A stretch of DNA of 50,849 bases from positions 1 to 50,849 of the forward strand of contig JAIQGK010000026.1 in the NCBI GenBank assembly GCA_020072645.1, read 5' to 3'. Below are positions 6,200-34,365 of this stretch, piece by piece. Both the position numbers and the translations under genes were made by a program. This DNA comes from Terriglobia bacterium (GTDB taxonomy: Bacteria > Acidobacteriota > Terriglobia > Terriglobales > Acidobacteriaceae). The notes below the pieces were generated by a model that had not been told where the DNA came from, did not search any database, and was given only the letters and a program-made list of their open reading frames with translations. Positions within the stretch are counted from its first letter, which is position 1, and each line of letters starts with the position of its first letter.

Positions 6200-7708
6200 A
6201 TGACAGAGCGCCAGACATCGCGGGTCCTGCTGGTTGACGACACGGAGCAAAATCGCTACGTGCTTTCGCGAATCCTGGCGCGCGCGGGCCTGGAAGTTGA
6301 GCAGTGCACCACCGGCAAAGAAGCGCTGGAGCGCGTGAAATCCTGCCCGGACCTGGTGATTCTGGACGTAAAGCTGCCTGATCTTTCCGGCTATGAAGTT
6401 TGCCGCCGCATCAAGACTGATCCAGTCACGCGTTCCGTGCCGGTGCTGCAAATTTCCGCGTCATTCGTGAGCAATGAAAGCAAAGTCCAGGCGCTTGAGG
6501 GCGGCGCGGACGGATATCTTACTCATCCGATTGACGCCACGGTGCTGGTGGCGACGGTCAAGTCTCTGCTGCGGCTGAAGCAGGCAGAATTAATCTCGCG
6601 GCAGTCGGCGCAACAATGGCAATCCACGGTGGACGCGCTGCCGGAATATCTGGTGCTGCTGGATACGGAAAACAAAGTCGTGCGCTGTAATCGGGCGTTT
6701 GTGGAGCTGAGCGGGAAAACTTTCAGTGAAGTAATTGGGCACGATGGCGTCGCAATCCTGGAGCAGGTGCTGGGCAGCGCGGATTTTCTCACGCATACTG
6801 AAACCTCGCGTTATGTGGCCGAACAACAGCAGGGGCAGCATTGGTTTCTGGTTACAGCAGACGCCGTAATGACCGGCACGCAGCGCTTTGGCTCCATTGT
6901 GGTCCTGACCAACATTACTGAGCGCAAGCTGGCGGAAGAAACTTTGCGCCACACGGAAAAGCTGGCGGCTACCGGCAGGCTGGCGCAGACCATCGCGCAT
7001 GAAATCAACAACCCGCTGGAAGCATTGACCAACCTGATTTATCTTTCCACGCACACGGACGATCAGGAGCAAGTCAGGGATTTCCTGAAGCAGGCGACCA
7101 GAGAGCTGGAGCGCGTTGCCAAAATCACGAAACAGATTTTGTCTTTCCATCGTGAAACCAAGATTGCCGTGGAGCTGGACTTTCAGGACATGGTGCAGTC
7201 CGTGCTGGCGTTATACGTGGTGCAGATGGAAGCCAAGCGCATCACGGTCGATTTCAAAAAAGGCCCGGCGTTCTGCATCCATGGATTTCCCGGCGAGCTG
7301 CGCCAGGTTTTTGCCAACATTATCGGCAATGCGATTGACGCGTCACCCGATCAGGGCAGCCTTTGTCTTCGCATCCGGAAAGGAACTTCGCATGGCGTTC
7401 CGGGCGTGGTCTTCACCATTCACGATGAAGGTCCGGGCATACCAAAAGAGCTGCGCAACCGCGTGCTGGAACCGTTTTTTACCACCAAAGAGCTCAAAGG
7501 CACCGGGCTGGGACTGTGGCTGGCGAACAGCCTGGTCATCAAACATCGGGGAAGCCTGCGTTTTCGCTCACGACGCGCCAGCGGCGGCCGTGGAACCTGC
7601 TTCAGGGTATTCTTGCCGTTTGGAACGCCGACCGACTTCAAATCCAAGGTTGAAAAAGAAAAGCCCCAAAAAGAAAAGTCGGCCCAGGAACTGGTCAAGG
7701 AAAATTGA
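6200..7708 (+). CDS. REC-PAS-histidine kinase
   Basis: A cytoplasmic kinase of 502 residues. An N-terminal receiver (VDDTEQN, phospho-acceptor Asp56 in VILDVKLPD) is followed by a PAS domain at ~150-250, then HisKA with His267 in IAHEINNPL, then HATPase with DEGPGIP and GTGLGLWL. The C-terminus ends in a Lys/Glu-rich tail. Phosphate from the hybrid kinase upstream could control this receiver, making a relay; that is inferred from order. The ATG used begins seven bases after the upstream stop. A frame extension back into the upstream gene exists but is unnecessary. This is the last gene of the stressosome operon. Confidence 0.88.
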   Translation: MTERQTSRVLLVDDTEQNRYVLSRILARAGLEVEQCTTGKEALERVKSCPDLVILDVKLPDLSGYEVCRRIKTDPVTRSVPVLQISASFVSNESKVQALEGGADGYLTHPIDATVLVATVKSLLRLKQAELISRQSAQQWQSTVDALPEYLVLLDTENKVVRCNRAFVELSGKTFSEVIGHDGVAILEQVLGSADFLTHTETSRYVAEQQQGQHWFLVTADAVMTGTQRFGSIVVLTNITERKLAEETLRHTEKLAATGRLAQTIAHEINNPLEALTNLIYLSTHTDDQEQVRDFLKQATRELERVAKITKQILSFHRETKIAVELDFQDMVQSVLALYVVQMEAKRITVDFKKGPAFCIHGFPGELRQVFANIIGNAIDASPDQGSLCLRIRKGTSHGVPGVVFTIHDEGPGIPKELRNRVLEPFFTTKELKGTGLGLWLANSLVIKHRGSLRFRSRRASGGRGTCFRVFLPFGTPTDFKSKVEKEKPQKEKSAQELVKEN

Positions 7709-8579: not shown

Positions 8580-9434
8580 TTAGATCATGCCTTCCAAGAC
8601 TTTTGAGAGTTCCAGCACTTCAAGGTTGGGCGGACATTCAGGCCAGTTATGACGCCAGCAGATGATCATGTCGCAGCCGTCTTTTTTGTGGCGATGGCGG
8701 AGGAAGTTGCGGCTCTCAAATTCAAACTCAATGCGGACGCGCTGCCACACGCCGCGGGACACCTCGAACATGGCTTCGCAGTCGGGGAAATCCGGCTGGA
8801 TGCGGAGAACGACGAACCCGAGTTTGCGCGCCAGGATGCCAAAGACGAAGACTACGCCGAGCTCGTTGGTTGGTTCATGGGCGAGTTCCGGCAGCATCAT
8901 GGGTCGGCCATAAACCGGGCGATCGCGATGAATGGGGCCTTTGCGGACGCGCGGGCGGACAAAAGCTTTTGCGGCTTTGCGCTGGTTCGTTACTTTGGCA
9001 TCACCGAGCTTGAGCACGTCCTGCCAGTCGCGCTCTAGTTTTGACTGGCGCGCGAATTTGCGGAAGGCCTCAGGAATGCGCGTCCAATGGCGGTAGCGGG
9101 TGTGAAAGGGCATGTTGCTGAAGCGTCCGGCGCTTTCATATTCATGCACGCTGGGAACCTTGCCCAGCTTGCGGGCGACGGCGGCCCAGTCAAGCAGCAG
9201 AGTGGATTCAGGCAGGCTGAAGCCGGGGCCAGTGGCTTCAAGTCCGGCGGCAGCCAGGGCGCGACCGAGGCCGCCGAAGCGCTTATAAATGACCTGCTCC
9301 GAGACACGGCCAATGAGGCGGAGATCGCGGAGGCTGGGATTGCGGCCAAGCTTCTTGGCGGAAAGACGGATGGCCTTGAGGACCTGTGGTTTGGACATGG
9401 GGATACATTGAGCGGCAAGCGGAGTTTTGGGCAT
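8580..9434 (-). CDS. HNR-repeat protein with C-terminal nuclease-like domain
   Basis: A 284-residue protein. Two homing-endonuclease-associated repeats (HNR) lie near residues 15-65 (LGRNPSLRDLRLIG, then FGGLGRALAAAGL) and ~80-130 (LGKVPSVHEYESAG). These helical units are associated with DNA recognition. The C-terminal ~100 residues include RIEFEFESRNFLRH followed by CDMIICWRHNWPECP and LEVLELSK. That pattern of a Glu-rich strand, then Asp on a hydrophobic strand with downstream Glu, resembles a PD-(D/E)XK nuclease core. The ATG has GAAAGGA seven bases upstream. A role in DNA binding or cleavage is inferred, not shown. No partner methylase or intein context is nearby, and the GC content matches its surroundings. 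Confidence 0.7.
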   Translation of the reverse strand: MPKTPLAAQCIPMSKPQVLKAIRLSAKKLGRNPSLRDLRLIGRVSEQVIYKRFGGLGRALAAAGLEATGPGFSLPESTLLLDWAAVARKLGKVPSVHEYESAGRFSNMPFHTRYRHWTRIPEAFRKFARQSKLERDWQDVLKLGDAKVTNQRKAAKAFVRPRVRKGPIHRDRPVYGRPMMLPELAHEPTNELGVVFVFGILARKLGFVVLRIQPDFPDCEAMFEVSRGVWQRVRIEFEFESRNFLRHRHKKDGCDMIICWRHNWPECPPNLEVLELSKVLEGMI

Positions 9435-25406: not shown

Positions 25407-25483
<77 letters not shown>

Positions 25484-25586
25484 TATTTTCATGCCATGTA
25501 TCGTTCTCGCATCTGCACAAGCGGACAAAAGATTGCCCGAACAGCTTGCTCCAGGGAACCTGTAAAGTCGGCGCCTGTCACCGGGA

Positions 25587-26117
25587 TTAGTGGAGGCGCT
25601 CCAGAGTGGAAAGGGCTTTCTCTTTATCTCCGGGGCTGAGTATGCCGGCTTTTGACCACGCGACTTTCCATGCGCGGTCAGCAACAATCGTAGTAGGCGT
25701 GGCAAACAAATCAAGCCTGGCGGCCACGTCGGCGGGTACGGCCATGATCAATTCCTGGTTCGAAGAAGCCGGACTGTTTTTCGGGAATTCAGCGGCGGAA
25801 GGAGCAAGGATCATGGAGTCGCAACCGTAGGCCCGCAGGGCGGCATCAAAATCTTGCCATGTCTCCTGGTCTTTCGCGCACCACGGACAGTGAATGCTCG
25901 TATAACGGATGGTATGGCACCCGTACCCGCTGTCTACCACGGGAATTCCGTCGGGGCTTATTCCGGAGACGGGACCAACTGTGGAGCCGGGAGCGGAAGC
26001 CATGTGGCGTTCATATTGGAAGCGAAGCCAATAATGAGCACCCATTGCCAGCATGTTCAGCGCCAGCGCCAGAATTATCAGCCGCCTGAACCATCGGTTG
26101 GTTCGGTCCATATTCAT
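25587..26117 (-). CDS. Membrane-anchored thioredoxin-fold protein with CPWC
   Basis: A 176-residue protein. An N-terminal anchor (FRRLIILALALNMLAMGAHY) is followed by an extracytoplasmic domain. The CxxC is CPWC, in a TSIHCPWCAKDQ context, followed by ATPTTIVAD, in which the Pro-Thr-Thr segment fits the cis-Pro loop (TPT). This is the layout of a thiol-disulfide oxidoreductase. Its ATG overlaps the TGA of the preceding gene (ATGA), so the two are translationally coupled; longer in-frame starts are not needed. It is the last gene of the cassette operon. Likely task, by inference: forming or rearranging disulfides in the cysteine-rich peptide encoded two genes upstream. Confidence 0.72.
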   Translation of the reverse strand: MNMDRTNRWFRRLIILALALNMLAMGAHYWLRFQYERHMASAPGSTVGPVSGISPDGIPVVDSGYGCHTIRYTSIHCPWCAKDQETWQDFDAALRAYGCDSMILAPSAAEFPKNSPASSNQELIMAVPADVAARLDLFATPTTIVADRAWKVAWSKAGILSPGDKEKALSTLERLH

Positions 26118-26881
26118 TGTGCCGCTCCCAATCGCAGTTCCGCGAGATTTCTGGGCGATTTTGGATAAGCGGCTTTGTACATTTTTCCGGCTGGAAGTCC
26201 CATTACTAGAACCTGGCCTCGGGCGTCGGCTCGCAGGAGCGCCTTCATGGCGGCATACTCCGCAGAGTCGATCAATAGAAAATGGATTTCGGACCCGACG
26301 GACAGCACGCGCGCGGAACACTCCGGCCCATCGCACACCCCCGCAAAGCCAACGTCGCCGGGATTTGCCTTGTCCGCCAAAGCCGCGTTCCAGAAATCTA
26401 CATCGGTCTGGAACCGGCGGCCGTGCAGGACGAAGAAAACCAGCTTCCTAAACCGCACCGGCGGAGCGGAGATGAACGTCCCCTTTTCATCATGGGCTCC
26501 GAGAAACTGGAAAGCCTCGGGCCTCTCAAAAGGCGACAAGGACGCGCTGCTTAAGTCACGCAACTGCCGGGCGTCCTCAATGTCAAGACGAATGAGGAAG
26601 ACCGCGAGGCAGAGTAGAGCGCCGAAAAGCAAGATATCAAGAATCCGCATGAGGCCGTCCAGAAAAAACTCGTCTGTGCTTCGATCAAGTATGATGCTGC
26701 CGTCATGTGGGGGCGGCAGCATGAAGTCACAGATTGAGAAGCAGTCCGGCGCATTGTTCTTCCCGATACAGAACGGTTGGTCCGCACCGCAGCACTGTCC
26801 AATTTTACCGTTCATTGGCGACGGCAACGATACTCTGAACACAACTACTGCCGTACAGGATAAGCAAAACTCCGGCGCCAT
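26114..26881 (-). CDS. Membrane-anchored thioredoxin-like protein without CxxC, Cys-rich N-terminus
   Basis: Up to 255 residues. Residues ~1-55 hold seven Cys (including GQCCGADQPFCIG and DCFSICDF). A membrane segment follows at ~82-96 (ILLFGALLCLAVFLI), then an alpha/beta domain (KLVFFVLHG, GDVGFAGVCDGPEC, IHFLLIDSAEYAAMKALL, GQVLVMGLPAGKMYKA) that reads like a thioredoxin fold lacking the active cysteines. The ATG at 26881 lies six bases after the stop of the Cys-rich peptide gene, suggesting coupling. Alternatively, ATG 26650 gives a 178-residue anchored protein and leaves 26651-26881 as a separate piece, perhaps a second Cys-rich peptide. The stop overlaps the next start. Function unknown; a redox or scaffold partner is inferred. 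Confidence 0.6.
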   Translation of the reverse strand: MAPEFCLSCTAVVVFRVSLPSPMNGKIGQCCGADQPFCIGKNNAPDCFSICDFMLPPPHDGSIILDRSTDEFFLDGLMRILDILLFGALLCLAVFLIRLDIEDARQLRDLSSASLSPFERPEAFQFLGAHDEKGTFISAPPVRFRKLVFFVLHGRRFQTDVDFWNAALADKANPGDVGFAGVCDGPECSARVLSVGSEIHFLLIDSAEYAAMKALLRADARGQVLVMGLPAGKMYKAAYPKSPRNLAELRLGAAQ

Positions 26882-26887
26882 TCACAG

Positions 26888-27109
26888 CTACTGGAATGAG
26901 CAATCTACAGTATCTGAGTTCGAGGAGCCGTCCTTCCCGAAGCACGTGCAGTTATTCAACCCTCCACATGTCCCTCGAGAGTTGGTGTTAGTGATGCAGA
27001 ACGCTCCACGCACGCAGCCGCTGGCCTTTACCGGATGCGTAAAAATCCCGGCTCCGGCAAGCAATACCCCGACCATTGCAATCCGTAAGACTATCCTTTG
27101 AATGTTCAT
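26888..27109 (-). CDS. Secreted six-cysteine peptide precursor
   Basis: A 73-residue precursor. A clear signal peptide (IVLRIAMVGVLLAGAGIF, then THPVKA) is followed by a mature part of about 43 residues with six Cys in the pattern C-x5-C-x9-C-x5-C-x-C-x13-C, rich in Gly, Asn, Ser and Thr. Six cysteines in so short a secreted peptide suggest three disulfides. GGAG eight bases upstream supports this ATG over one six codons earlier. It is first in a minus-strand operon with two thioredoxin-fold membrane proteins. It could be a bacteriocin-like or signalling peptide, or a redox carrier; I recognise no family. Confidence 0.65.
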   Translation of the reverse strand: MNIQRIVLRIAMVGVLLAGAGIFTHPVKASGCVRGAFCITNTNSRGTCGGLNNCTCFGKDGSSNSDTVDCSFQ

Positions 27110-27549
27110 CACATGTTCTCCATTCATACGTGAAGTTACAAACAGAAATGCAGTCTAGCATTTGGAAACTATGGCCAGACTAATCCGAAAAATAATAAAG
27201 AAAAATTTAGTTTCAATCTGGGAAGCTGAGTTGGCATGATGGAAGCAAGGGCACAACGAGCAACCGTGTCGTATTCGGAAAAAAGTACTGGATTATTTTC
27301 GAACATTCGCGGAACGTCGGCGAACTGCCGGCACCTGACGCAGGTGTGCCCTGGAACATGGCCGCAGTAAGCTGCAGCCGCCGCGCTTGTTTGTGATGGC
27401 TTGATGTTCCGCATACTCTTGGATTATTGAAGAAAATGCAGCTAGTTAAAACAGAAACGATCCTCAATTTTCGACAACGTTCAGGATCGATAATGCAAGT
27501 CTTGCAACGTTAACCGGGCGAAGGATTCAGCAGTTTCTCTGGTTGGTGG
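27110..27549. other. Non-coding stretch upstream of the peptide operon
   Basis: Around 440 bases, more A/T-rich than the surroundings, between the peptide gene and the second tRNA fragment. It should contain the promoter of the minus-strand operon. No integrase or other convincing gene is visible. Confidence 0.5.
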
Positions 27550-27601
27550 AACTGACTCTTAATCAGCAGGTTGAAGGTTCGATTCCTTCCGCGCTCACCA
27601 A
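27550..27601 (+). repeat. tRNA-Lys 3' fragment: attachment-site-like repeat, copy 2
   Basis: 51 of 52 bases match the tRNA-Lys 3' half including CCA. The preceding bases (CTCTGGTTGGTGGAA) look like a decayed D-arm, but the 5' acceptor strand is absent, so it cannot form a tRNA. Confidence 0.85.
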
Positions 27602-27638
27602 ATCTCTTCAAAGCTTAGAATCTACGAGAGCAATTAAT

Positions 27639-28658
27639 GTGTTCGACACGCGGCTAACCCGGCTGGCTGATGCGACTTCTATATTGCTTTTTGGCGGCGA
27701 CGACGATCGCGAGATCGAGGCGGCTGTAACATTCCTGGACCGGTTGTTTCGCGACATTACCGGCCTGCGCGAAAACACAGCCGACCTGCGCGACCGTTCG
27801 GCCACTTCGTTGCCGGCGGGGGCGGCAATTTCTCCGCTGGATGCCGGGCGTTGCCTGCTGGATGCGCGGCGAACCGCCGTCTATTTGCGCGGCGTTTATC
27901 ACGCCATTCAGGAGGCGCAGCAGCGGTTCCCAGGAGAGGTCATCCATGTCTTGTATGCCGGTTGCGGGCCATTTGCCCCGCTGTGTCTGCCTCTGTTGCC
28001 GCTGCTTGCGGGACAGGCGGTCCACTTTACCCTGCTGGACGTGCATGCGCGTGCAATCGAAAGTGTCCGGGCCATCATGGCAGCCTTGCGATTAGAAGAG
28101 GCGAACGTCGATTGTCTGGCATGCGATGCCACGCATTATCACGCCCCGGACCATCGCCCTTTGCATGTTGTCGTTAGTGAAACGATGCAGAGAGCACTGG
28201 GCGAAGAACCGCAAATAGCTATCCTGATGAACACGGTTCCCCAACTTACACCCGGAGGCTTGATGGTTCCTGAGATGATTGCTGTGGACGCGGTTCTCAC
28301 CGATCTGTCACGGGAGCTTGACGGCAACGTAGCGAAGCCCTGGAGCGGACGCATTCCGCTTGGCCGGATTCTCGAGGTTGACCGCGAACGCGTCTGTGCG
28401 TGGTCTGAGGCGGGAGCATCGTTGCATTTGCCACCCGCACGAATCGCCATGCCACCAGTGGACGCGGCGCAATACTCACTGGTGCTGACCACCACTATTC
28501 GTACGTTCGGCGTGCACCTGCTGCGGGAGTATGAGTCGGGTCTAACACATCCGCTTGTGGTGAATGGCTGGCGCCCCGGTGAAGAGGTCGAGTTTACCTA
28601 CCGCCTTGGCAAGAAGCCTGGGTTCCACCTGGAACGGATTAGGTATCAAGACAGGTGA
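27639..28658 (+). CDS. SAM-dependent methyltransferase-like protein
   Basis: About 339 residues from a GTG start. The N-terminal ~90 residues are helical. A Rossmann methyltransferase core follows, with motif I VLYAGCGPFAPL, an acidic end of strand 2 (FTLLDVHARAIES), motif II-like CLACDATHY, and VVVSETMQRALGEEP. The latter loosely resembles the double-Glu loop of protein arginine methyltransferases. The C-terminal third is beta-rich. Substrate unknown. The reading frame continues upstream through the tRNA fragment, but that part is clearly not protein-coding; no strong ribosome site marks the true start. It fills the second tRNA-bounded cassette. Confidence 0.6.
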   Translation: MFDTRLTRLADATSILLFGGDDDREIEAAVTFLDRLFRDITGLRENTADLRDRSATSLPAGAAISPLDAGRCLLDARRTAVYLRGVYHAIQEAQQRFPGEVIHVLYAGCGPFAPLCLPLLPLLAGQAVHFTLLDVHARAIESVRAIMAALRLEEANVDCLACDATHYHAPDHRPLHVVVSETMQRALGEEPQIAILMNTVPQLTPGGLMVPEMIAVDAVLTDLSRELDGNVAKPWSGRIPLGRILEVDRERVCAWSEAGASLHLPPARIAMPPVDAAQYSLVLTTTIRTFGVHLLREYESGLTHPLVVNGWRPGEEVEFTYRLGKKPGFHLERIRYQDR

Positions 28659-29151
28659 GACGCCGCCTGTCTCTAGAAAATCTCAGCACCAAAAGTAAGC
28701 ACGAACTCCATTTTTACAAGAAGGCTCTGTAGAAATCTGAAAAGCCCAGCCGATGCCGATAGCTACACCTAAATTCTTCACCACCAATCGGATATGAATA
28801 GGTGAATTCAATAAATTCCTGTATCCCCGATGGAATAGCCTCCTAAATCAGTATGTTGAAGATTTCATTCCTTCCGCGCTTACTAAATCTTTTTCAATAA
28901 ACTATGTTGCCGATGAAAGCAACTGATGTGGTCTTGTGGGATCGGCAAACGAGAAGAAGCAATGATCCAACCTTCAAAGTTGCACTTAGAAGAGAATTAT
29001 TCCCAGTTTGAAACAAAATTCCAAAACGGAGCAAGAATTAACTAATTAAAAATATTTCACCACTTTTCATTTGCAAATGCAGGTACTCTCATTCTAGACT
29101 CCCCGTCGTTTGCTAATCAGTAAAGAACGCCAAGAGCACGATTGGATTTCT
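28659..29151. other. A/T-rich intergenic region holding the third tRNA-like remnant
   Basis: About 490 bases, distinctly A/T-rich in the second half (near 28980-29060), with no gene. It holds the degenerate tRNA fragment listed separately and the promoter region of the giant repeat protein. Confidence 0.5.
28829..28896 (+). repeat. Degenerate tRNA-Lys 3' fragment, copy 3
   Basis: Matches copy 2 at roughly 80-85 percent, including CTTCCGCGCT, GTTGAAG and the downstream flank AAATCT. The anticodon and T-arm are damaged and CCA has become CTA. It most likely marks an older boundary of a second cassette. Confidence 0.65.
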
Positions 29152-32100
29152 ATGTTGCGCAACCAGCTGACTGTACTCTCTCTCTTTCTTCTTGCCCTTC
29201 TGTTTCATGTCCCGCTGTTTTCGCAGACTGTGCCGCACATCGCACAGCTTAGCCCAGTGAGCGGACCAGCAGGCACGCTAGTGACCATCAGTGGTTCGAA
29301 TTTCGGTGGAGCACAGAGCAGCGGAACAGTATCTATTGGAGGAATCAGCGCGTCCATAGGAAACTGGTCTGATACGCAGATCACGGCCGCGGTTCCTGAC
29401 GGTGTCACGATTGGCAATGCAAGCGTGACGGTGACGAGTGGGAGTGGAAGCACAAGCAACGCAGCTGGATTTACAGTGGCTCAAGGAACCATTTTCCCCG
29501 GCCCTGTTTCCTACGCCTACGACGAGTTGGGCCGCCTGGTGGGGGTGGTGGCGGCCAGCGGTGACGCGGCCCAGTACACCTACGATGCTCTAGGCAACGT
29601 ACTTGCGATTACACGCACTACTTCGAGCCAGCCATCCCTATTTACATTCAGTCCCAAGTCTGGGCCTGTGGGCACCCAAGTTACGATCTTTGGCGCTAAT
29701 TTCAGCTCAGACCCAGCGCAGGACACGGTTTCATTCAACGGGACATCCGCCACGGTTACGTCCGCGTTGTCTACTCAACTGGTTGTGACTGTGCCAGCGG
29801 GGGCCACATCGGGAGCTATTACAGTTACTTCTCCGTCGGCGTCCGTTACAAGCGCAAGTCCGTTCACGGTTACAAGTTCCTCCGGCAAGCCGCGCATCGA
29901 TTCATTTACTCCACAAATGGCCGCACCAGGAACGGCGATTACGATTGCGGGCGCGAACTTCGATCCGGCACCATCCAATGACCGGCTGATTATGAACGTG
30001 ACACCGGCAGCGGTCCCGAATTCGGCACAGCCTACGAGCTTAACCATGACGGTACCGAGCAAGGCAGGTTCCGGGCATATCTCTTTGAACACGCCGGCTG
30101 GAACTACGTCGAGCACGGACGATCTATTCATTCCGCCGCCGGGTTACACGGTTTCGCAATTGGCTTATACGGGGCGTGCCGTTTCAGGCAGTGCCACCAC
30201 GGTTTCTGTGCCGACGGCGAATGGGATTGGATTATTGCTATTTGACGGCGCGGCTGGACAGGCCGTGAGCATTGTGTCTTCCGCTCCTACCTTCAGCGGT
30301 TGCCAGATGCAGGTTTATGCGCCTGATGCCTCGCTGGCGGGATCAACCGCCTCGTGTTCCTCGCCGAGCTTTATGAGAGTTAGCCTGGCGACAACAGGAA
30401 CCTACACTCTGGCCATTCTTCCATCGAGTGGAGCAACAGGAAATGTAACTGTGCAACTCACTACATTCAACGATGTAACCGGCCCGATCGTGATTGGAAC
30501 GCCGCTCAGCGTTACCACCACGGTCCCTGGTCAAGTTGCGCGCTATATCTTCAGCGGGACGGCGGGACAACAGTTGAGCATGAACCTGAGTGGAAACACC
30601 TACGTCGGCTGTAATGCGGTTGTGGTGAGCGTGTTGCAATCCAGCGGGACGTCAGTAGGTTCAACGGGGGTCTGCAATGGCACTACGGGATTCATGGACT
30701 CCATCACCTTGCCGACTACTGGTGTCTATACGGTGCTGGTCAGTCCACAGGGCACTACCACGGGCAGCATCACGCTGCTTCTGAACACATTTACGGACGT
30801 GACAGGAACAATCAGCGTGGGCACGCCGCTTACAAGTACCACGACTACGGCCGGGCAAAATGCGCTGTACACGTTCAGCGGAACCGCTGGCCAGCAACTG
30901 AGCATGAATTTGAGCGGCAACACGTATGTAGGCTGCAATGCGGTTGTGCTCAACGTTTTGAAGTCAGATGGGAGTTCTCTGGCTTCGACCGGAATTTGCA
31001 ACGGCAGCACTGGATTCATGGATTCGTTCACGTTGCCTGCGACCGGTACGTATACGGTGCTGGTCAATCCTCAGGGAACTACGACGGGCAGCGTCACGCT
31101 TCTACTGAACACGTTTGCGGATGTAACGGGAACAATGAGCGTGGGAACGCCGGTTACGGCGACTACGACTACGGCGGGACAAAACGCGTTGTTCACATTC
31201 AGCGGCACAGCGGGACAGCAGTTGAGTATGAACCTGAGCGGCAACACCTACACAGGCTGCAACGCAGTTGTAGTGAGCGTGCTGCAATCCAACGGAACCT
31301 CATTAGCTTCCACAGGAATCTGCAACGGGACCACGGGCTTCATGGATTCATTTACCTTGCCGGCCGACGGCACTTACACAGTGCTGGTCAATCCGCAGGG
31401 AACAACGACTGGCAGCGTCACAATGCTCCTTAATACGTTTGGAGATATTAGCGGGACTATCACGGTGGGAGTACCGCTCACGGTTACCACCACCGGTGTT
31501 GGCCAGAATGCGCGCTATACATTCAGCGGAACATTGGGACAGCAGCTAAGTATGAATCTGAGCGGCAACACGTATGTTGGCTGCAATGCAGTTGTGGTGA
31601 GCGTGTTGAAGTCTGACGGGACTTCTCTGGCTTCCACGGGAATCTGCAATGGCGCGACGGGCTTCATGGATTCGTTCACGTTGCCTGCGGCCGGTACGTA
31701 TACGGTTCTGGTCAATCCTCAGGGAACTACGACGGGCAGTGTCACGCTTCTACTGAATACGTTTACAGACATATCGGGAACAATCAGCGTAGGAACTTCG
31801 CTTACGGCCACCACCACAGTGGCTGGACAGAATGCCCGCTATACGTTCAGCGGAACATTAGGACAGCAGTTAAGCATGAATCTGAGCGGCAACACATACG
31901 CAGGCTGCAATGCGGTTGTGGTGAGCGTGTTGAAATCGGACGGAAGTTCGCTGGCTTCCACGGGAATCTGCAATGGCAGCACCGGATTTATGGATTCCTT
32001 TACCTTGCCGGCCGCCGACACTTACACAGTGTTGGTCAATCCCCAGGGGACTACCACAGGCAGCGTTACGCTTCTGCTCAACACGTTTACAGACGTCGCG

Positions 32101-34365
32101 GGAACGATCAGCGTCGGCACACCGGTAACAGCCACTACAACGGTTGCCGGACAAAATGCTCGCTACACGTTTAGCGGGACCGCGGGTCAGCAGATGAGCA
32201 TGAATCTGAGCGGCAACACTTATGTGGGATGCAATGCCGTTGTGATCAGCGTGTTGCAACCTAGTGGGGCTTCTGTGGGCTCCGCCGGGATATGCAACTC
32301 AACCACGGGATCTCTGAATTCCATTACCCTGCCGACCGCGGGCACTTACACCATATTGGTTGATCCGCAGGGAACAACTACTGGCAGCGTCACAATGCTT
32401 CTCAATAACTTTGCGGATGTAACGGGAACCATCAGCATCGGCACGCCGCTTACCGCCACCACCACAGTTGCCGGACAGAACGCTCGCTATACGTTCAGCG
32501 GAACTTCCGGCCAACAGCTAAGCATGAGCTTGAGCGGCAACACTTATGTTGGCTGCAATGCAGTCGTGGTGAGCGTGTTGCAGCCGAGCGGGGCTTCAGT
32601 GGGATCCACCGGCATCTGCAATGGCAGCACCGGCTTCATGGACTCCATTACTTTGCCGGTCACAGGCACTTATACGGTGCTGGTAGATCCGCAAGGGACA
32701 ACCACCGGCAGCGTTACGCTGCTGCTCAACCCATTCGCTGATGTAACAGGGACTATCACTATTGGAACATCGCTCACGGCGACTACCACGGTTGCCGGGC
32801 AGAATGCGCGCTATACGTTCAGCGGAACATCTGGCCAACAGTTGAGCATGAATCTGACTGGCAATACTTACACGGGTTGCAATGCAGTTGTTGTCAGCAT
32901 ACTGAAGTCAAATGGAACCTCAGTGGGTTCTGCCGGCGCTTGCACCAGCGGTACCGGCTTCATGGATTCTATTACATTGCCAGCCTCCGACACTTATACA
33001 GTGCTGGTAAATCCCCAGGGCGCCACCACTGGCAGTGTGACAGTTCTACTGAATACGTTTACAGACATAGCTGGCGGGGCCGTCACTGCAGGAACACAAT
33101 TCACTGCAACCACCACCACGGCAGGACAAAATGCGTTGTACACATTCAGCGGGACAGCGGGCCAGCAGGTAAGCATGAACCTGACCGGCAATACCTACAC
33201 GGGTTGCAATGCGGTGGTGGTGAGCCTATCGCAGCCCAGCGGAGCAACGGTGGGCTCCGCCGGCGCCTGCACCGGCGGCACAGGCTTTATGGATTCCACT
33301 ACATTGCCGGTCACTGGAACATATACCTTGCTGGTCAATCCTCAGGGAACAACCACCGGCAGCGTGACTGTCTTGATCAATACTTTCGGAGATCTCAGCG
33401 GCACGATGACTGTGGGAACGCCGCTCACGGTTACCACAACCGGCGTCGGACAAAACGCACGCTATACCTTTAGCGGAACGGCAGGCCAGCAGATCAGCAT
33501 GAACCTGACCGGCAATACTTATACGGGGTGCAACGCAGTGGTGGTGAGTATATTGCAGCCCAGCGGAGCAACCGTTGGCTCAGCCGGCGCCTGCACGAGC
33601 GGCACAGGTTTCATGGATTCCATTACGTTGCCGGTCACCGGAACCTACACAACACTGGTCAATCCCCAGGGCGCCACCACCGGCAGTGTGACGATCCTGT
33701 TGAATACGTTTACTGACATAGCTGGCGGAGCTGTTACAGCAGGAACGCCGTTTACAACAACCACCACCACGGCCGGGCAGAACGCGTCATACACATTCAG
33801 CGGAACGGCTGGCCAGCAGATGAGCATGAATCTGACTGGAAATAGTTATGTCGGCTGCAATGCGGTTGTGGTGAGCATACTGCAACCCAGCGGAGCCACT
33901 GTGGGCTCGGCTGGCGCCTGCACAAACGGCACAGGTTTCATGGATTCCATTACGTTGCCGGTGGCCGGTACTTATACGGTTCTGGTCAATCCGCAGGGAA
34001 CAACCACCGGCAGCGTTACTGTTCTGCTGAATAATTTTGCAGACGTCACAGGCACAATCGCCTCAGGAACGCCGCTTACTGCCACTACTACTGTTGCTGG
34101 GCAGAATGCGCGTTACACATTCAGCGGGATAGCGGCCCAGCAAGTGAGTGCAAGCCTGACGGGAAATACATATTCCGGCTGCAATGCGGTGGTCGTCAGC
34201 ATTTTGAAGCCAGATGGAAGCACATTAAGTTCAACGGGCCTCTGTACTGGCGGCTCCGGGTCTATAGCGTCCGTCGCTCTTCCATCCACCGGCACATATA
34301 CCGTGTTGGTGAATCCGCAAGGGACAACCACCGGTAGCCTTACTGTTGCGCTGACGTTGAATTGA
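29152..34365 (+). CDS. Giant secreted IPT/TIG protein with twelve near-identical 108-aa repeats
   Basis: A 1737-residue protein. A signal peptide (LTVLSLFLLALLFHVPLFSQ) is followed by an IPT/TIG domain (ISGSNFGGAQ), two YD-type units (YDELGRL, YDALGNVLAITR) and two more IPT/TIG domains. A divergent repeat then leads into twelve strongly conserved units of about 108 residues to the C-terminus. Each unit holds ARYTFSGTAGQQLSMNLSGN, GCNAVVVS, a second Cys after STG, and PQGTTTGSVT, reminiscent of pre-peptidase C-terminal beta-sandwich domains. The paired Cys probably form one disulfide per unit. No enzyme domain or anchor is visible. The ATG giving a signal peptide at once is chosen; a TTG 14 codons earlier is not. 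Likely an adhesin-like or surface protein. Confidence 0.85.
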   Translation: MLRNQLTVLSLFLLALLFHVPLFSQTVPHIAQLSPVSGPAGTLVTISGSNFGGAQSSGTVSIGGISASIGNWSDTQITAAVPDGVTIGNASVTVTSGSGSTSNAAGFTVAQGTIFPGPVSYAYDELGRLVGVVAASGDAAQYTYDALGNVLAITRTTSSQPSLFTFSPKSGPVGTQVTIFGANFSSDPAQDTVSFNGTSATVTSALSTQLVVTVPAGATSGAITVTSPSASVTSASPFTVTSSSGKPRIDSFTPQMAAPGTAITIAGANFDPAPSNDRLIMNVTPAAVPNSAQPTSLTMTVPSKAGSGHISLNTPAGTTSSTDDLFIPPPGYTVSQLAYTGRAVSGSATTVSVPTANGIGLLLFDGAAGQAVSIVSSAPTFSGCQMQVYAPDASLAGSTASCSSPSFMRVSLATTGTYTLAILPSSGATGNVTVQLTTFNDVTGPIVIGTPLSVTTTVPGQVARYIFSGTAGQQLSMNLSGNTYVGCNAVVVSVLQSSGTSVGSTGVCNGTTGFMDSITLPTTGVYTVLVSPQGTTTGSITLLLNTFTDVTGTISVGTPLTSTTTTAGQNALYTFSGTAGQQLSMNLSGNTYVGCNAVVLNVLKSDGSSLASTGICNGSTGFMDSFTLPATGTYTVLVNPQGTTTGSVTLLLNTFADVTGTMSVGTPVTATTTTAGQNALFTFSGTAGQQLSMNLSGNTYTGCNAVVVSVLQSNGTSLASTGICNGTTGFMDSFTLPADGTYTVLVNPQGTTTGSVTMLLNTFGDISGTITVGVPLTVTTTGVGQNARYTFSGTLGQQLSMNLSGNTYVGCNAVVVSVLKSDGTSLASTGICNGATGFMDSFTLPAAGTYTVLVNPQGTTTGSVTLLLNTFTDISGTISVGTSLTATTTVAGQNARYTFSGTLGQQLSMNLSGNTYAGCNAVVVSVLKSDGSSLASTGICNGSTGFMDSFTLPAADTYTVLVNPQGTTTGSVTLLLNTFTDVAGTISVGTPVTATTTVAGQNARYTFSGTAGQQMSMNLSGNTYVGCNAVVISVLQPSGASVGSAGICNSTTGSLNSITLPTAGTYTILVDPQGTTTGSVTMLLNNFADVTGTISIGTPLTATTTVAGQNARYTFSGTSGQQLSMSLSGNTYVGCNAVVVSVLQPSGASVGSTGICNGSTGFMDSITLPVTGTYTVLVDPQGTTTGSVTLLLNPFADVTGTITIGTSLTATTTVAGQNARYTFSGTSGQQLSMNLTGNTYTGCNAVVVSILKSNGTSVGSAGACTSGTGFMDSITLPASDTYTVLVNPQGATTGSVTVLLNTFTDIAGGAVTAGTQFTATTTTAGQNALYTFSGTAGQQVSMNLTGNTYTGCNAVVVSLSQPSGATVGSAGACTGGTGFMDSTTLPVTGTYTLLVNPQGTTTGSVTVLINTFGDLSGTMTVGTPLTVTTTGVGQNARYTFSGTAGQQISMNLTGNTYTGCNAVVVSILQPSGATVGSAGACTSGTGFMDSITLPVTGTYTTLVNPQGATTGSVTILLNTFTDIAGGAVTAGTPFTTTTTTAGQNASYTFSGTAGQQMSMNLTGNSYVGCNAVVVSILQPSGATVGSAGACTNGTGFMDSITLPVAGTYTVLVNPQGTTTGSVTVLLNNFADVTGTIASGTPLTATTTVAGQNARYTFSGIAAQQVSASLTGNTYSGCNAVVVSILKPDGSTLSSTGLCTGGSGSIASVALPSTGTYTVLVNPQGTTTGSLTVALTLN
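30529..34362 (+). repeat. Tandem array of twelve ~324-bp coding repeats
   Basis: Period 324 bp (108 codons), read from the GGxCAA codons that open each unit at 30529, 30853 and onward to about 34099. Units near the centre are close to identical over long blocks. The later five share GAC(T/A)-type features (TGNTYTGCNAVV, GSAGAC) and form a subfamily distinct from the first seven. Confidence 0.85.

Follow-up and report, generated by a model that had tools for sequence, protein, structure and literature searches.

Organization of the locus

The 50,849-nucleotide (nt) contig JAIQGK010000026.1 of a Terriglobia bacterium (assembly GCA_020072645.1; Acidobacteriota, family Acidobacteriaceae), referred to here as the window, carries on its minus strand three genes which encode a 73-residue Cys-rich peptide precursor, a small membrane protein (open reading frame 2, ORF2) and a membrane-anchored thioredoxin-like protein (ORF3). 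They are situated between an intact tRNA-Lys gene and a partial copy of it (Table 1). Genomes, contigs and loci used for comparison are denoted by G, C and L numbers. A first-pass annotation of this DNA had proposed a six-Cys precursor with a signal peptide and a membrane protein possessing a CPWC active site, and both genes were borne out, the former by reading of the gene and by a short-ORF filter (a start resembling a signal peptide, four or more Cys, and at least 7.5 % Cys in the remainder after residue 24), and the latter by the match of its family profile to StoA and ResA. The signal peptide and the membrane anchors of all three genes were assessed by eye and hydropathy, and in the case of the peptide also through this crude filter.

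The precursor has a basic N-terminus followed by a hydrophobic core, and its six Cys residues lie within the final 42 residues in the framework C-x5-C-x9-C-x5-C-x1-C-x13-C; the net charge, counted after residue 22, is +1. A GGAG sequence is located 8 nt upstream of the ATG, and the promoter-like sites of the region (two, vs. a mean of 1.2 in shuffled sequences) showed no excess over chance. Over the 50.8-kb window the filter returned two matches, namely this peptide and a TTG-start ORF within another frame. Database searches with the peptide revealed no Pfam family at E ≤ 1, a single PDB chain at E 0.55 and one NCBIfam family at E 0.057, which is below the cut-off; these results and the literature searches described below agree with the initial impression that no described family could be recognised.

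ORF3 displayed the features of ResA/StoA/TlpA-like proteins, including an N-terminal hydrophobic segment (by eye), a CxxC motif and the Pro of the TPT motif, and its match to a thioredoxin-like domain in Pfam was weak (E 0.025, below the cut-off). Single-sequence searches of 200 genomes of the family with ORF3 and ORF2 (E ≤ 1e-4) identified only the window's genome and G134, a member of the same genus in which the peptide, ORF2 and ORF3 occur in identical order; the two loci share 38 % identity in the peptide, 43 % in ORF3 and 32 % in ORF2. A scan of 84,980 named species for ORF3 by short exact motifs, which is sensitive to close relatives only, returned one record, the G134 contig, and no phage or plasmid carriage of ORF3 was found.

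The longest frame of ORF2 spans positions 26114–26881. Since the alignment with its sole relative (L012/L192) begins at the ATG at 26650, the start was placed there. A second Cys-rich peptide considered in the upstream part of this frame (26651–26881, seven Cys) was rejected, as there is no stop before ORF2 and no visible counterpart in the relative. The gap between the peptide gene and ORF2 amounts to 237 nt in the window and 117 nt in the relative, and the former speaks against tight coupling of this pair. By contrast, the end of ORF2 and the start of ORF3 share 4 nt (ATGA) in the window, and the corresponding overlap in the relative is 1 nt (TGATG). Hence, the coupled operon proposed at first holds for ORF2–ORF3 and not for the peptide gene. 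The additional proposal that ORF2 is a second thioredoxin-fold partner could not be confirmed: its comparison with the thioredoxin profile in hhalign gave a weak match (probability 4.5 %, E 0.009) with the core in register, its comparison with the two ORF3 proteins (window and relative) gave a probability of 0.1 %, no match was obtained in Pfam or PDB, and ORF2 is present in 2 of the 200 genomes of the family.

Table 1. Features of the locus (window coordinates).
Feature	Position	Strand	Remarks
tRNA-Lys(CTT), intact	25407..25482	+	one island end
ORF3, 176 amino acids	25587..26117	-	membrane-anchored (by eye), thioredoxin-like; CPWC, TPT; ATGA overlap with ORF2 stop
ORF2, 178 amino acids	26114..26650	-	single hydrophobic segment near the N-terminus (by eye); lacks CxxC; GVCDxxxC conserved
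Peptide precursor, 73 amino acids	26888..27109	-	signal peptide (by eye) and mature part with six Cys
Promoter-like TTGAAA-16-TATTTT	27189..27216	-	upstream of peptide gene; chance level
52-nt copy (98 %) of tRNA-Lys 3' end	27550..27601	+	other island end, att-like
Third tRNA-Lys 3'-end copy, weaker (84 %)	28843..28886	+	

Conservation of the peptide within the genus

All six Cys residues are aligned between the window peptide and its G134 counterpart (L192/L012). A four-row profile of the window peptide detected further members in 3 of 9 genomes of the genus, and peptide profile A1 gave matches in only 3 of 300 genomes of the family, all from one genus (E ≤ 0.001). In the six window-type peptides of the genus, which include four beyond the two complete loci, the order C-x4/6-C-x8/9-C-x5/7-C-x1/2-C-x9/13-C is kept, so that the Cys positions are indeed conserved among homologues. 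A peptide of G235, which belongs to another genus, exhibits near-identical spacing (C-x4-C-x8-C-x7-C-x2-C-x11-C) and adjoins a CPYC enzyme. In G106, a tandem pair of window-type peptides is followed by a CHFC thioredoxin-like gene. Solo window-type genes, with no thioredoxin-like gene adjacent, occur in the window's genome (contig C5) and in G106 (C45). Weak single-sequence matches (L007–L009) were discarded: L007 lies inside a 647-residue frame, the L008 frame contains three stops, and the stretch surrounding L009 (L015) gave no filter match. Co-occurrence of all three genes was thus found in one other genome only, G134, and the general unit is the peptide plus the thioredoxin.

Recurrent pairing of Cys-rich peptides with thioredoxin-like proteins

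Searching the genome of the window with the thioredoxin profile uncovered two further pairs. A ten-Cys secreted peptide on contig C19 is immediately followed by a CHFC protein, and on contig C6, a CPFC protein is followed by seven tandem secreted six-Cys peptides with knottin-like spacing and a shared leader ending in SARQ. With a five-row profile (E ≤ 1e-12), ORF3-type proteins were localized to 28 places in 22 of 250 genomes of the family, representing 10 of 79 genera; across the phylum they were found in 49 of 396 genomes and 37 of 210 genera (E ≤ 1e-15).

Among the 27 family places other than the window, which were read with their flanks, 22 had a filter match within 1.5 kb of the thioredoxin gene and 21 had one that shared the strand of that gene and lay less than 400 nt away; the nearest gap was 13–66 nt in 19 of the 22. 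A second count disregarded the window and its four companion seed loci; it accepted proteins of up to 260 residues encoded on the strand of the thioredoxin gene at a distance of ≤ 400 nt. A Cys-rich secreted ORF was observed beside the thioredoxin gene at 18 of 23 loci of the family, at 15 of 24 loci outside the family (a sample of the 65 matches listed) and at 1 of 30 control loci, the latter being ordinary Redoxin (PF08534) genes from eleven of the same genomes. Restricting the count to ATG starts yielded 16 of 23, 12 of 24 and 0 of 30, respectively; the corresponding Fisher p values of 1.7e-8 (family) and 7.9e-6 (outside) are to be taken as guides, the loci being related. By the first count, 4 of the 30 controls had any filter match, and 17 regions picked by place (330 kb) contained five, two of them with ATG starts. 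The pairing of a Cys-rich secreted peptide with a CxxC thioredoxin-like membrane protein suggested by the window is therefore a recurrent one, extending far beyond it.

The filter failed at 5 of the 23 family loci and 9 of the 24 outside loci, and reading by eye revealed a Cys-rich ORF nearby at nine of these 14, as a missed peptide, one gene away, as a fragment or on the opposite strand. Within the family, the filter had overlooked a secreted L109 peptide whose mature part has six Cys, L102 and L114 carry Cys-rich proteins one gene from the thioredoxin, and L105, which begins at a contig end, has a C-x3-C fragment upstream. Outside the family, proteins with 14–29 Cys adjoin the thioredoxin or lie one gene off in L169, L174 and L177, and the peptides of L189 and L190 are on the opposite strand; a Kazal-like assignment of the L189 peptide received no Pfam support. 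At L111, L172, L183, L185 and L186, no Cys-rich ORF was seen by the thioredoxin gene upon reading by eye.

It could be argued that the linkage is coincidental, i.e. that small Cys-rich ORFs are common and thioredoxin genes merely happen to be nearby, and the spurious ORFs among the control matches as well as the solo peptides would fit such a view. We regard this explanation as hardly credible in light of the control counts (1 of 30 Redoxin loci, five matches per 330 kb), the short gaps in most of the family loci with a match, and the recurrence of the pairing outside the family with unrelated peptides. The invariance of the six Cys residues and the dN/dS values of array orthologues given below indicate that the peptides are real genes. 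In our opinion the locus is probably a member of a lineage-wide two-part module, consisting of an exported Cys-rich peptide and a membrane oxidoreductase of the ResA/StoA/TlpA type that handles it; what has been observed is the structure of the genes, the conserved Cys residues, the frequency of the pairing, the homology of the enzyme and the two ends of the island.

Diversity of the peptides and their neighbours

A total of 55 peptides were listed by hand; antisense-like or internal ORFs, an L094 ORF that has lost a Cys (6942–7169), a duplicate (L188, 2553–2819), two secreted Cys-containing ORFs near L030 (3938–4327 on the other strand, and 9170–9358) and larger proteins were left out. Their frameworks include the window type, knottin-like arrays, repeated C-x3-C hairpins and others with up to 12 Cys. 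The 16 array peptides share the spacing C-x3/4-C-x5-C-x3/4/5-C-x1-C-x9/10/11-C. The short C4–C5 spacing by which knottins are recognised is found in all 16 and, loosely, in the window peptide (C4-x1-C5). Counted after residue 22, the array peptides are all net positive (+2 to +6), and of the 39 others, 31 are negative (to -11), 3 neutral and 5 positive. Six array orthologue pairs between genomes gave ratios of nonsynonymous to synonymous substitution rates (dN/dS) of 0.27–0.34 in five cases and 0.58 in one. A CS-alpha-beta defensin identity was considered and rejected for the window peptide, in that the pattern given for bacterial defensins in PMC11561630, CX(2,18)CX(3)CX(2,12)CX(4,17)CXC, matched neither this peptide nor the arrays; that expression was fitted by 3 of the 55 peptides only.

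The tandem arrays, of 4–7 peptides with a conserved leader, are located directly after a CPFC or CAFC thioredoxin-like gene (L016:5675–8132, L093:4103–5456 and L094:6393–7445), and one member of the L094 array has lost a Cys. Outside the family, the partner of the thioredoxin in L167, L168, L170, L171 and L173 is a larger secreted protein of 154–194 residues with 15–19 Cys. A VWA protein (TIGR03436) adjoins the Cys-rich gene in L167, L170 and L173, above the cut-off, and in L107, below it; proteins of VWA-like appearance are present in L168 and L177. In L108, L110 and L113, a divergent ADOP/MacB-like (MacB/FtsX-type) permease, below the ADOP cut-off, comes immediately after the peptide gene in the same orientation and less than about 330 nt from the thioredoxin gene. 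In some branches, these VWA, permease and signal peptidase neighbours may be a sign of export, display on the surface or immunity, and none of the three was seen in the window island. The signal peptidase (PF10502) is that of L109:5682–9702, where it occurs with a thioredoxin-rhodanese fusion, the six-mature-Cys peptide and a 621-residue protein with no Pfam or NCBIfam match, possibly forming a processing cluster. L102:3543–4778 encodes a 411-residue secreted protein with 34 Cys, for which the top Pfam match, Conotoxin_I2 (E 0.00024), is below the cut-off.

The enzyme family and its redox context

Alignment of 25 ORF3-type members (28 less L105, L109 and L111) showed that C77 and C80 of the CxxC motif, P141 (the TP proline) and G158 are invariant. 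When compared with the PDB, the family profile matched StoA (4.5e-13) and ResA (8.3e-13), then other extracytoplasmic thioredoxin-like proteins. The active sites include CPWC, CHFC, CPFC and CAYC, among others, and differ from the CEPC and CPPC sites of known ResA/StoA-type proteins. In the phylogenetic tree, window ORF3 pairs on long branches with its G134 relative, apart from the others, a type of join that may be false. The window framework is found beside a CHFC-type enzyme in G106 and, in closely similar spacing, beside a CPYC-type enzyme in G235; the tree does not group these, their placement being unsure. That one framework occurs with different enzymes, and similar enzymes with several frameworks, argues that the enzyme acts broadly on exported chains rich in Cys and is not the partner of one specific fold.

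A match to VKOR, a membrane enzyme that generates disulfides, was obtained in 12 of the 14 carrier genomes searched, including that of the window; G106 and G023 had none. Both ResA and StoA reduce disulfides. Since the known enzymes of this type are reductive, isomerisation or proof-reading beside the VKOR oxidant would be, by analogy, the most economical role for the ORF3-type enzyme.

A reductase proper, which like ResA, StoA or CcmG would keep the peptide thiols reduced (e.g. for metal or haem binding, or a thiol relay), is a role that we consider improbable. StoA and ResA being the nearest solved relatives by profile, the regular C-x3-C pairs in many peptides that could bind metal, and the two carriers with no VKOR match would be consistent with it. 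On the other hand, frameworks of six to twelve Cys, some of them knottin-like, indicate disulfides, VKOR is present in most carriers, and inspection by eye of the genes that recur around the family loci brought up none recognisable as metal-handling.

The tRNA-Lys island

The distance between the tRNA-Lys gene and its 52-nt copy is 2118 nt, and the two constitute the direct repeats expected of a tRNA-integrated island; no integrase was seen within positions 25483–27601. Elsewhere in the genus, phage-integrase matches (phrog_1) are encoded next to the same tRNA gene in G106, G050 and G153, and extra copies of the tRNA-Lys 3' end are present in G106, G050, G184 and G153, from which it follows that tRNA-Lys is an integration hotspot and the occupant of the window a minimal cassette. 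Genes that we take to be glgP and a DUF2252-like gene lie upstream of the window tRNA and by the tRNA in G170; the presumed DUF2252-like gene is also by the tRNA-Lys of G153, and the presumed glgP by that of G106, G134 and G198. An empty tRNA-Lys site could not be demonstrated; in G170, a transposase-like frame (by eye) comes after the tRNA-Lys, close to the contig end.

The island is special to the window, as 28 of 29 related family and genus stretches (4.9 to 19.5 kb each) have no tRNA gene, the exception being L114 with a tRNA-Glu. A search of six related stretches for tRNA-Lys fragments produced only a 15-base match, in L013. The third copy in the window is perhaps the end of an older insertion holding the gene at 27.6–28.7 kb. 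Several tRNA 3'-end copies in a row were observed within single genomes (window 25407–28886; L053, L054, L055, L056 and L059); the segments between copies in the window and G184 measure only about 1–5 kb with no integrase noticed, as if small cassettes accumulate. Farther along, positions 29110–34365 of the window encode a 1751-residue secreted protein with IPT/TIG-like domains and many near-identical repeats (by eye).

Discussion

The two-part module proposed above would operate as follows. The peptide would be exported by Sec in the reduced state, upon which general oxidation by VKOR and the dedicated oxidoreductase, its CxxC facing the periplasm, would form and proof-read the three disulfides; the folded peptide would then be active beyond the inner membrane. 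The enzyme family may recognise exported Cys-rich chains of unrelated frameworks, and in the window, the module together with the extra membrane protein ORF2 would travel as a 2.1-kb cargo cassette in the tRNA-Lys hotspot. Possible roles of the peptide outside the cell include competition, protease inhibition, surface structure and signalling.

Several points weigh against this proposal. The outside-family loci that were read are only 24 of the 65 matches listed, and the loci are related rather than independent samples. Filter failures occurred both within and outside the family, including the five loci at which reading by eye revealed no Cys-rich ORF, and the solo peptides of the window's genome and of G106 mean that linkage to the thioredoxin is not obligatory. 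The lack of a VKOR match in two carriers runs counter to general oxidation by that enzyme, and the ORF3-type enzyme could, by analogy with ResA and StoA, equally act in the reducing direction.

The tRNA-island setting was initially thought to suggest a competitive or defensive role. Although the island ends were found, a defence or competition role for the peptide is not supported so far, given that none of the five proteins compared with the PADLOC models of known anti-phage defence gave a match, that most related loci are devoid of a tRNA, and that the peptides outside the arrays are mostly acidic. A rival reading along these lines holds that the peptides are bacteriocin- or toxin-like weapons, with the thioredoxin serving in maturation, ORF2 or the permease in self-protection and the tRNA island in spreading the weapon. 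As regards the enzyme, it agrees with the module described above; the difference lies in what the peptide does. The cationic, diversified tandem arrays of knottin-like peptides, the placement of the cassette in an integration hotspot and the PedC and BdbA precedents discussed below would favour a weapon; the permease of L108, L110 and L113 could export the peptide or protect the cell, and ORF2 could serve as an immunity protein. We nonetheless deem it unlikely: besides the results just cited, among them the net acidity of 31 of the 39 non-array peptides, the window has no recognised immunity or export gene, and the six array orthologue pairs are under purifying, not positive, selection.

Gene linkage of the kind described here has precedents, and the preferred reading of a peptide with its own oxidoreductase can be compared with them. 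According to PMC4919988 and PMC6405829, PedC of pediocin PA-1 and BdbA(B) of sublancin are likewise CxxC thioredoxin-like proteins encoded beside an exported disulfide peptide and held to mature it; these systems are Gram-positive and include a known immunity gene as well as a peptidase/ABC transporter. PedC lowered the minimum inhibitory concentration of recombinant pediocin from 1.2 to 0.4 uM (PMC4919988), so that there is precedent for an exported disulfide peptide being assisted by a thioredoxin-like protein encoded beside it. The present loci have in common with PedC/BdbA the linkage of enzyme and peptide genes. Unlike those systems, the window has a Sec-type signal peptide (by eye) and a ResA/StoA-like membrane enzyme, many unrelated frameworks are found across loci, and no dedicated transporter was recognised in the window island, a permease being present only in L108, L110 and L113. 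The leaders of the PedC/BdbA systems are of a different type from the Sec-type signal peptide seen here.

With ResA, StoA, TlpA and CcmG, the enzyme shares a membrane-anchored thioredoxin-like domain, the CxxC and the TP motif. Unlike ResA and StoA, it is accompanied by adjacent substrate-like peptides, and the loci read showed no recognisable gene for cytochrome c or sporulation next to ORF3-type genes. Similar in arrangement is MauD, a dedicated membrane thioredoxin-like protein for MauA, the small exported many-disulfide subunit of methylamine dehydrogenase. MauA differs from the present peptides in being one conserved subunit with a tryptophan-derived cofactor, and unlike the MauD–MauA case, the recurrently neighbouring genes, inspected by eye, included none recognisable as MauE-like. 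NVEALA, considered as another possible parallel, was set aside, the word being absent from the open-access literature searched. Bacterial cis-defensins (PMC11561630) are small secreted Cys-rich peptides of five classes, with one of 74 originating from Acidobacteria; the words 'thioredoxin' and 'neighbor' are absent from the main text of that paper.

In soils, Acidobacteriota rank among the most abundant bacteria; knottin-like peptides are known mainly from plants and animal venoms. Among the open-access matches listed (subscription journals and preprints lay outside this scope), there was no report of peptide–thioredoxin pairs in Acidobacteriota, and their exported disulfide-rich peptides were represented by one defensin-like sequence only. 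That the pairing recurs in related soil bacteria, and with very different peptides, suggests that secreted disulfide peptides with a helper enzyme of their own form a class not recognised before. Extending this further, we lean, by a modest margin of confidence, toward the view that exported mini-proteins rich in disulfides make up a large and so far unrecognised set in Terriglobia and other members of the phylum, comprising knottin-like arrays, C-x3-C hairpins, the window-type six-Cys peptides and proteins with 14–34 Cys. A dedicated membrane thioredoxin would accompany them, its gene marking their presence, and single modules may be mobile as integrase-less 2-kb tRNA cassettes. If this is true, the thioredoxin gene would offer a handle for mining exported disulfide-rich peptides outside the curated families, including arrays with knottin spacing, and the module would represent a Gram-negative, Sec-dependent version of a dedicated peptide oxidoreductase, in which one enzyme family serves many folds.

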